A stretch of DNA of 52,738 nt, taken from assembly GCA_032358255.1 (NCBI GenBank), contig JAULBX010026053.1, positions 1-52,738 of the forward strand, in the 5' to 3' direction. Below are positions 4,326 to 7,800 of the stretch, piece after piece. The notes beneath the pieces are model-generated. The model did no database searches. It saw only the letters and a program-made list of their open reading frames with translations, and had not been told where the DNA came from. Each line of letters starts with the position of its first letter. Position 1 is the first letter of the stretch. A program made the translations under genes and the position numbers. This DNA comes from Heterotrichella gracilis (taxonomy: Eukaryota; Sar; Xanthophyceae; Tribonematales; Xanthonemataceae).

Positions 4326-4831
4326 CTAGGTACTTGTTTTGCCAGTCATGGTATCGAGCTTCAGTACCCATACACCAGTGTTTGGGCAATAATGAATTGT
4401 TTGTAGACCACTGAGCTTGGCGAGGTTATGCAGTCTCTCAAGAACGATGTCATTTGCTGAGTTGTGTTTTGGAAAAATCTGCTCAAAAGTGATTATTGCA
4501 GGCACATTTAAACCGCAGCCTGCCTGGGGGACAGAAACATCTTCATAAAATTTGACGCTGCCATGAGAAATGTTTACAGCTGATTCCAAGTCAAGGTATC
4601 TCAAGTCCACTGGGTACAAAAATGCAACTGCCCCCACACCCTCAACTCCGATCACAAAGTGGTGAACAGAAGCCAGCTGATCCTCTGTAAGATCTTGGAG
4701 GATCTCCATTGGTGGAAAGGTGTAGTAGTTTTGATCGCACAGTCCTGGTGCAAAGTGATTGCGATGACGGGTTTCTTGAACTGCTGTTGGTGTTTGCCTT
4801 TCAGATGTGGTCTTCGACCAAGCAGTCGGAC
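4326..4831 (-). CDS. Nup98-type autoproteolytic (peptidase S59) domain; probable last exon of the PKS
   Basis: After a good acceptor (pyrimidine-rich tract, then ATGCAG) the frame encodes about 168 residues. Family landmarks are [10 protein letters not shown], the DLTEDQL...VHHFVIG block, [40 protein letters not shown], and a C-terminal [12 protein letters not shown] strand. These match, in order, the fold of the Nup98 autoproteolytic domain, which in nucleoporins cleaves itself at an HFS triplet and anchors Nup98 at the pore. Here the aligned triplet is TMT, and the frame stops six codons later. The exon starts with two bases of a codon (phase 1), exactly complementing the donor of the last ACP exon at 5551, so it may be the C-terminus of the PKS. 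Alternatives are a separate gene whose 5' exons I cannot see, or a relic. The GLFG repeats of a normal Nup98 are absent nearby. The domain identity is firm; the fusion is inference. Confidence 0.75.
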
Positions 4832-7800
4832 CTGCATGGGTGGGCACGAAACAAAATGATTGCACGTGGCATACCAAGTTGCCCTTTACGTACCACTTTG
4901 CCCTTCACATCTATACATGTCTGAGTATATCAGTCAGCCTGCTAGTTACATGCCGCATATATATTTAGTTATGCGCGTTCCAGTCCCAGATTCAAAGTCA
5001 ACCCTTCATGCGTTGTGCCTGTGTGTACTGTCCCCTACCTGTACCAGGGGGTATATAGAAAGAGAGTCATTTTCTATATACCCCTTGCCTGTACCCTGAT
5101 TTGGGTCAAATTTGGGTCCAAATCGACTAGATAGCAATTAGATCCAAAAACATTAAATAACCCCAAGGGTAATAAGATAATAATAGGTCCTATTATTATC
5201 TTATTACCCTTGATAACCCCTGAAATAAGGCCCACCAAAAAATGCTTACACATCCCGCAAAAATCGCCGAGGCGCTTCAAAAAGTTTTCGAAAACAGTTA
5301 CCCCGATGTACGGTATGTCTTGTTCCTATATGCCTTGTGCCACCACTTCTTTCCTGGCTAATCTATTTTTGCCCGGCAGTTTCAATGTAGCTATCCTGCG
5401 TAAAGCAAGGTCAACTCTTGTGGTTCTGGGCCTCCCTACAATGCGCTTAAAATCGAAGTCTCCCCATACAGGTTGGACTTGAATGTATCACTTGCCATCG
5501 GAGTTGGGGATGCATACCACTCACTGATATAGCCGGCAAACTGTGCTTACCCATATACGGTATCTGTTGCACATAGCGGTCAAGGTAATGTAGGCTCTGT
5601 TGTTCACGTTTGCTGCTGGGTCCATAAGGCAAATCAGCATGGTTACCCATGGAGAATGCCAGCTTTGGCGGATCATTAAGGGGTAATGCCACGTTGCTTG
5701 TACCCATGTTTGTGCCCATTGCAATGCCGGCACCGTCCAGCATGTTGCTGGCCAGTACTTCTGCAAGATATGCAATTAGTGCATCTGCTGAAGAATATTC
5801 AAACAGAAGGGTTGCTGGGAGTACCAAGCCAATTTTGGTGGATAGTTTAGCTGCAAAATCCATCTGGCCTGCATGGAGCATTGTCAGTGGTCAAATTGTC
5901 AATGACATGTCCAACTTGGACAATCTGAATGGGAAGTGGCATGTATGCATGGACGACGGAATACCCCTTTGAGTATGATAATATGCATGCATGCATGCAT
6001 ATTCACTGTCGTTGTCAAGAGCTCAGCAAGGGGTCACATGAAGAGGGGGGTGCTTGTAATGCCATATGCCAGTAAAACCTGTCTTTGTATTGAATTACCC
6101 AGTACAAAAAACTTGGCCCAAACAAAGTCAAACATGCTGCAGGCATTTTTTTTTTCCGCGGCGCCAAAGTTACAAGGGCACCCTGGGCAAGGCACAGGCC
6201 AAGCCCGGAAACACACAAAACAAAATAGGAGAATTTCGTGCACGTGCTCGAAAAATGAAGTGGCAAAAACCACCCACGTGCGCGCAGAAAACAACGACGT
6301 GGGTGGTTTTTGCCACTTCATTTTTTCATTGTTTGTGTGATTGTGGTTCTTGTAACTCTTTCTCATTGCAAAAAAAAAAGAAAAAAGCAACAACCACGTG
6401 CGCACGAAAGCCTCACAGGCTATTTGGAGCCACCTCCAGCGACCTATACGCCCCTCCGGGACCGGAACCCCAGGCTACAAAAAACCTCGGTCAGGAGCCA
6501 GAGGCTCGGATGGCCACAAAGTGGCATGATGGAAAAACCTAGGTACTTGAATAGATAGCGCATAACGGCAGCTATCAGTGCAGGCAGACATGTCTCCTTC
6601 CAACAAATGTCTAGAATGACCGTCATGCACAGAAGGGACAATGGTGGATCGAAATAAAGGGATATTGATGAACATCACTACAGGAGCAGATGCCTGCATT
6701 CGGAGCAATGGGTGACAGCTCCAATTGGCCTCATAAACAAAGTAAAGAATAAATAAATAATGAAATATTTATGCAGCCTGTCCTTGAACAAGCGCGTTGG
6801 TTAAGGAAGAGGATTTAGCAGAGAGAATTGCAATGCCGTCCTGCCCACTATGTCCTCTACCATATTTGTTTGGTGCCCTCCTCAAGGGATAATTACCCTA
6901 GGAGTGCTGGTTAGTGACGTTAACCTATTCCCGTCTAGATGTGTTCTGGAAACCTTTCTTCTTAGTATGTGTGGGCAACAAAGCATAAGTGACAAACCCA
7001 GGGACATTAGGCTAAGTTGGTTGGGACATGTACTAAGTTTATGAGACGAACGGGTTCCTAAATGTATGGTGCTTAGTAGGTTAGAGGGGGCAGGGGTAGG
7101 TAAGCCAAGGGCCACGTGGACTGACCTACTCCAGCAGGACCTCAAGTCGCGTGGGATCAATAAGTGGTTGAAACAGTGGCAAGAAAGAGCTGCGTGGCGC
7201 AATATGCACGTAATCCATGCACGTAATCCATGAAGGGGAGTGATGCGCCCGTTCACCCTCCCCTTCACATGATTACAAGATTACAAGATTATTTGACATG
7301 CACTTACTAGCATGAGCAAGACTGACTGCTAACCTGGCTGTATTGCAGCAACTAACTAAAAACCTGATGGGTTCTGAATAAAACAAAGTAATGATACATA
7401 GAAAGAAGAAAAAAGTACATAGAAATCCTAGACTGGTGCACATAGTAGAGAGTCGTTACCCCCACTGCAACACTTTTGTAAGGCAGAGTAATCGTTTGAA
7501 CGTTTTTTTGCCCTCTCTTGTGTAGAAGCCTGTCTCGATTCCGTCCCAATTCCTTCAATTCCGGTCAACGTCGAGTACCCGGTCCCCAACTCGATCCCCG
7601 ACGTGTACATCGTACATCGCACGGAAGCTGTAGAAAGAACTTCGAACGAACATGACACCCAACATAACAACAAGTCTTCCCGGTTGGGGGCCATGCTTGG
7701 TTTTGTTGTCCAGTGTTACATTAGCATAATCACTCTAGCTAGCTGAGTGTTAAGGATGTAGGGCTAGCCGCATTGCAATGGAATGTCTGTTCTTTGTTCT

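Follow-up and report, generated by a model that had tools for sequence, protein, structure and literature searches.

In vertebrates, the Nup98 autoproteolytic (S59) domain also anchors Nup98, via Nup96 or the Nup88 propeller, as described in the relevant passage of PMC11148069. The Nup145N domain has been reported to bind the Nup82 propeller, and the Nup82 complex is likewise tethered by Nup100 and Nup116 (PMC5653651). The multimodular type I polyketide synthases (PKSs) of green algae are large, intron-rich and composed of KS, KR, ER and ACP domains, according to extracts of PMC4661987 and PMC7073580; the domain key of a figure in PMC4661987 lists TE, Red, Lig, MT, C and A, and this key contains no S59. 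In the present study, domains of both kinds are found side by side on the minus strand of one contig of Heterotrichella gracilis. The window analysed is this entire contig (C355; 52,738 nucleotides), from an assembly of 68.5 Mb in 903 contigs. The S59 block may be the last exon of a giant PKS gene, which we tentatively adopt as the best single gene model. The chain would then end in the order KS, KR, ACP, 71-residue tail, linker and S59-fold domain, without a thioesterase. A sequence-only reading of this DNA had proposed a PKS ending in an S59 domain; the domain, its acceptor, the PKS and the missing thioesterase are borne out by our data, and the weight placed on the donor and on phase is not.

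The upstream minus-strand gene is the 3′ part of an intron-rich type I PKS, sharing with the green-algal enzymes its large size, its introns and its KS, KR, ER-like and ACP pieces. KS, KR and ACP domains with active-site motifs lie in exons of a single strand, and DTACSSSL and HGTGT motifs are present in both KS domains. The following pieces were recognised:

46112..48587, minus strand: KR (50.8 bits) and weak enoylreductase-like pieces (ADH_zinc_N_2, 24.8 and 22.7 bits, below the cut-off of 27)
44567..44668, minus strand: ACP piece (23.1 bits)
40058..43151, minus strand: KS in several exons
33158..33484, minus strand: KR piece (60.2 bits)
28465..28677, minus strand: ACP of the preceding module (PP-binding, 27.7 bits)
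19010..28365, minus strand: KS of the last module, in several exons separated by introns that carry retroelement sequence
12133..13399, minus strand: KR of the last module in three exons (about 13399-13117, 12765-12547 and 12286-12133; the middle exon 43.7 bits)
11704..11800, minus strand: first half of the last ACP, ending WEMDSI/G at donor tag/GTAAGC (8.6, phase 1); upstream boundary uncertain
5551..5868, minus strand: last recognised PKS exon, with the second half of the last ACP and a 71-codon tail (PP-binding, 16.2 bits alone; acceptor 5869, 11.7)

The ACP exon of the sequence-only reading is thus the second half of the domain only. Its first half was located 5.8 kb upstream of the second-half exon, at 11.7 kb, and the joined halves score 26.0 bits (cut-off 20.8) compared with 16.2 bits for the 5551-5868 exon alone; the PKS thus appears intact as far as its last carrier protein. 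Left unspliced, the last PKS exon continues as an open frame to a stop at 5447-5449. As had been stated earlier, neither a thioesterase nor a reductase is seen: PF00975 has no match on C355, compared with 12 elsewhere in the genome (a thioesterase split into short exons or lying beyond the contig could escape), and PF07993 has none on C355, compared with 27 elsewhere. No release domain of either type was therefore found after the last ACP on this contig. A second PKS locus, over 70 kb long and rich in KS and ACP pieces, lies on contig C44 (about 33-110 kb, minus strand); in contrast to the window PKS, it includes a thioesterase piece (33269-33544). Within the genome, the ACP-tail peptide matches only itself and, weakly, C44 (E 0.14). 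In the long intron preceding the last ACP exon, positions 6251-6325 form a perfect 29-bp inverted repeat with a 17-nt loop.

Downstream of the PKS, the Pfam profile PF04096 matches the minus-strand ORF 4326-4904 at 92.1 bits (E 4.6e-26), above its curated cut-off of 28.4. The block at 4326-4831 therefore belongs to the S59-fold family, and the earlier description of a clear Nup98 autoproteolytic-domain homologue is upheld. Two features were defined:

4326..4831, minus strand: S59 exon, 167 codons plus stop TAG (PF04096, 92.1 bits; acceptor 9.79 at 4832; coordinates rechecked)
4356..4733, minus strand: S59 (Nup98 autopeptidase-fold) domain, profile positions 2-140 of 148, HF/S site absent

The first two bases of the exon, GT, complete the split codon. 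Both the stop (TAG at 4328-4326) and the TGTAA behind it (4265-4261) are present as noted before; with 70 copies in the window, TGTAA recurs on this strand every 750 nt or so, and such signals were accordingly given no weight.

A profile search of the assembly found only two other S59 exons, both on contig C21, in a gene with FG-repeat exons upstream, an HFS site in its S59 domain and five Nup96 pieces downstream. By position and strand, this Nup98-S59-Nup96 gene looks complete, which makes the window S59 an additional paralogue, with 43% and 38% identity to the two C21 pieces. Its frame is free of stops across the whole domain, and the indel relative to C21 is in frame; given that 57-62% of residues differ, the open frame suggests that the window copy may be under selection. 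The fold-core motifs YYT.PP, G.EG.G.V.F, GLN.PA and G.WV.K are common to both, whereas the window S59 lacks the HF/S site and the intra-domain intron of C21 and has a shorter loop. It also differs in its surroundings, with no FG repeats before it and no Nup96 behind it. Among the minus-strand ORFs of the window, none is an FG-repeat exon (those with two or more FG are not FG-repeat-like), and no PF12110 match follows the S59, all five such matches in the genome lying on C21. The window copy thus has neither the N-terminal FG repeats of a Nup98 nucleoporin nor the C-terminal PF12110 region of a Nup98-Nup96 precursor or Nup96. Plant Nup96 genes reportedly start with an S59 domain; a Nup96 start was considered for the window copy and rejected, as all five Nup96 matches sit behind the C21 S59. 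On C21, just upstream of 65353 (minus strand), the supposed intron contains about three repeats of the start of the S59 exon (QLSRLLxRLRRRDYYMHP-like).

At the cleavage site, C21 Nup98 reads VFRVEHFSR, and HF/S is absent from the window copy, a loss that the sequence-only reading did not record. We take this C-terminal site to be the defining feature of the MEROPS S59 autopeptidase, a class to which the window copy, lacking it, would not belong. Self-cleavage, one of the roles suggested earlier, is consequently not expected, even though the fold-core motifs persist. In a search of solved structures, the best match of the window S59 is Nup98 at 61 bits, with alignments that stop short of the cleavage site; the C21 S59 reaches 90 bits, with an alignment that runs through HF. 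Nup116 is also among the matches of the window S59. The S59-fold domains of yeast Nup116 and Nup100 are reportedly not cleaved, a likeness to the window copy, which differs from them in having no adjoining FG repeats and a PKS as its neighbour. Product release through the S59 fold, a second suggested role, finds no support here, the residues for self-cleavage being gone, and we know of no such activity for this fold. Of the roles suggested, protein binding or docking may still apply.

Splice sites were scored with a matrix built from 33 introns of this genome's KS copies, obtained with a purpose-written spliced-alignment program. Flank scores guided their selection from 55, with a length of at least 70 nt also required in C44 and the window, which makes the set uninformative on short introns. 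The following features lie between the ACP exon and S59:

4832..5550, minus strand: supposed intron of 719 nt, containing a competing acceptor (5396) and two palindromic MITEs
5164..5212, no strand: 49-bp perfect palindromic MITE, 7-bp duplication ATAACCC on both sides
5045..5087, no strand: 43-bp hairpin MITE, 7-bp duplication CCTGTAC on both sides

Coordinates and frame agree with the earlier proposal (ATGG/GTAAGC at exon end 5551; ATGCAG/GTCCG at next exon start 4831), and the acceptor is as strong as claimed. At 9.79, it is equalled by 22 of the 2930 AGs on the strand, and 26 of the 33 training acceptors, each left out in turn, score as low or lower. Acceptors this good occur near the start of one of 68 plus-strand control ORFs (at least 80 codons) and 14% of 92 minus-strand ORFs, the latter being on the strand of the real exons. 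No ATG occurs in the S59 exon ahead of domain residue 8. With so strong an acceptor and no early ATG, the exon is very likely spliced onto something upstream.

The donor at 5550 had also been called strong, a description that does not hold. Its score is 4.84, equalled or bettered by 27 of the 33 training donors and by 9.5% of the 3214 GTs on the strand; with each training donor left out, seven of 33 are as low or lower. It is a weak to middling donor, and a second donor of the same phase, at 5517, scores better (6.31). Phase and frame are correct as proposed. As evidence, the phase match is worth little more than tossing a coin, because 49% of the 68 plus-strand and 51% of the 92 minus-strand ORF tails contain an in-phase donor that scores at least as high as 5550. 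Another acceptor, at 5396, had gone unmentioned; it scores 10.0, and splicing to it ends the PKS after one codon (TAG 5393-5391). Summed splice scores are 14.63 for the fusion via 5550, 16.10 for the fusion via 5517 and 16.26 for a stand-alone S59 gene with a 62-nt intron. Well-signalled introns here measure 88 to 4206 nt, so 719 nt is ordinary.

Codon usage is coding-like before the donor and not after it. The tail at 5552-5764 (71 codons) has a z of 2.93, reached by none of 3000 noncoding stretches, which were taken from the window and may include unseen exons. For the 33 codons after 5550, 73% of noncoding stretches are as high and 2.9% of 755 left-out coding windows are as low. The PKS exon therefore probably splices at 5550. 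The S59 codons are unlike those of the PKS (z 0.35; 0 of 50 left-out coding windows of equal length as low), on a measure that is weak because the certain ACP core itself reaches just z 0.73.

A separate small gene is possible if doubtful, in which a stand-alone, cleavage-dead Nup98-like S59 protein is encoded behind a PKS that ends by itself. The PKS would stop at 5447, or splice from 5550 to 5396 and stop at TAG 5393-5391, with TGTAA at 5250. S59 would start in the gap, for example at ATG 4918 (MYRCEGQS) with donor 4893 and a 62-nt intron to 4832, or from a non-coding first exon, and the protein would bind nuclear-pore partners like its yeast homologues Nup100 and Nup116. The top summed score (16.26) belongs to the chain of ATG 4918, donor 4893 (6.47) and acceptor 4832, the rival acceptor at 5396 reaches 10.0, TGTAA follows the PKS stop by about 200 nt, S59 and PKS codons differ, and the combination of PKS and S59 has no known precedent. 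However, an intron of 62 nt would be exceptional. From 408 C44 proposals (minimum 40 nt), 86 have donor and acceptor scores of at least 3, and two of these are 70 nt or shorter; among the 48 with both scores at least 6, none is under 81 nt. A longer intron to 4832 leaves a best donor of 3.3, and ATG 5070, which has a donor of 11.2, finds only weak fitting acceptors (1.9 or 1.2). The stretch from donor 5550 to the stop at 5447 is not coding-like, and a last exon with nothing but a stop would be unusual.

A relic is unlikely: the S59 exon would be a non-functional remnant of an earlier Nup98 duplication, located behind a PKS with an end of its own. The lack of FG-repeat exons upstream on the strand and of Nup96 behind S59, the lost cleavage site and the start of retroelement sequence 140-190 nt past the S59 stop all agree with such decay, but the frame is open over the entire domain (identity to the C21 pieces, 43% and 38%), the indel is in frame and the strong acceptor is retained. 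A truncated PKS, its next module lost or beyond the contig and S59 lying in debris or an intron, is very improbable: the contig does end 4.3 kb onward within retroelement sequence, and the best C44 match of the ACP exon is an ACP upstream of a KS rather than the pre-thioesterase ACP, but the tail scores −1.0 bits against a profile of seven local KS starts, a value that 545 of 2000 shuffles reach. When left out in turn, the seven KS starts themselves score 7.7 to 40 bits (0 to 2 of 500 shuffles as high); a partial likeness of the tail to a next KS module, seen by eye, was not borne out by this profile.

The continuity of the locus was assessed at its repeats. Both MITEs have the ends CA(A/G)GGG...CCCTTG, and the 49-bp palindrome, a possible misjoin point, occurs in at least 40 other places in the assembly (40 of 141 candidates scored). 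Five other copies were fetched, and all five have an exact 7-bp flanking duplication, recognised by script in four of them and by eye in the fifth, whose palindrome is lengthened by chance bases. The exact 7-bp duplications around both window MITEs thus mark insertion scars in a continuous locus and disfavour misassembly at the palindrome. The contig end downstream of S59 is filled as follows:

1..4189, minus strand: retroelement sequence with a gag-like ORF (2681-4189) and a zinc-finger piece shared with contig C348

The gag-like ORF has a weak Retrotrans_gag match (E 0.0075, below cut-off), and the pol-like reading of 1-2700 was made by eye. Reverse-transcriptase/zinc-finger-like fragments, likewise named by eye, lie in both orientations at 23.7-24.5, 29.8-31.0, 19.4 and 3.9 kb, mostly in PKS introns, and are shared with contigs C561 and C348. 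Inverted copies of the 23-bp motif GGGTGCCCYTGTAACTTTGGCGC lie at 4135-4157 (minus) and 6161-6183 (plus), and the motif occurs in 17 places in the genome. We considered these copies as the ends of one transposon carrying S59 and ACP and rejected this, since most of ten fetched copies lie beside T-rich (A-tail-like) sequence and share flanks; the motif is probably the end of a dispersed retroelement. As to whether C355 comes from another organism, the palindrome and the retroelement end are common to other contigs, and the fetched loci have 48-58% GC, with 44% for the window. A beta-tubulin search of the assembly gave 11 matches on four contigs. Two long contigs, C442 and C111, carry an intronless KS directly behind an ACP (FabF/AcpP-like) and are probably bacterial contigs in the assembly.

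For S59 as the last exon of the PKS gene, the nearest upstream coding exon on the same strand is the ACP exon, which offers two donors of the right phase (5550 and 5517), whereas a stand-alone S59 using acceptor 4832 needs a 62-nt intron, a donor scoring no higher than 3.3, or a first exon without coding sequence. We also counted in its favour the codon break at the donor, the ordinary 719-nt intron, the stop-free S59, the absence of thioesterase and reductase matches and the MITE duplications. Against it, we counted the middling donor at 5550, the nearer acceptor at 5396, the higher sum of the 62-nt model, the un-PKS-like S59 codons and the lack of a relative. The PKS-S59 architecture has no relative in its own genome and none was confirmed in the outside collections searched, which were viral and prokaryote contigs: pattern stretches in IMG/VR (five for S59, five for the ACP tail) and in GTDB contigs (42 for S59) were all unconfirmed. 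Among the open-licence papers listed by our searches, some judged by title and the start of the abstract, nothing resembling the fusion came up, and none of those with Nup98 mentioned polyketide synthase.

Based on these data, we propose what an S59 domain at the end of the PKS might do. If the join is made and translated, the S59 fold, its cleavage site lost, would not cut itself. It would most likely grip a partner peptide or a beta-propeller, as Nup98-type domains do in their second role, and binding would tether the PKS to a releasing enzyme acting in trans, to another PKS chain or to a cellular place. We infer a role in partner binding, with release in trans, and see nothing that points to catalysis. 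It is conceivable, as one possibility, that the PKS took up a Nup98-type anchoring C-terminus and lost the autopeptidase site, and that this end either recruits a releasing enzyme or attaches the megasynthase to a partner, a peptide or a beta-propeller, which might sit at the nuclear envelope.

To our knowledge, there is no earlier case of the Nup98 anchoring fold outside nuclear-pore proteins. Were S59 a separate gene, it would be a Nup98 paralogue unable to cleave itself, found in an alga-like genome and of modest interest for the evolution of the nuclear pore. If the join is real, this PKS has a type of C-terminus that our searches did not encounter, and a borrowed nucleoporin domain could set the docking partner or the location of the enzyme.
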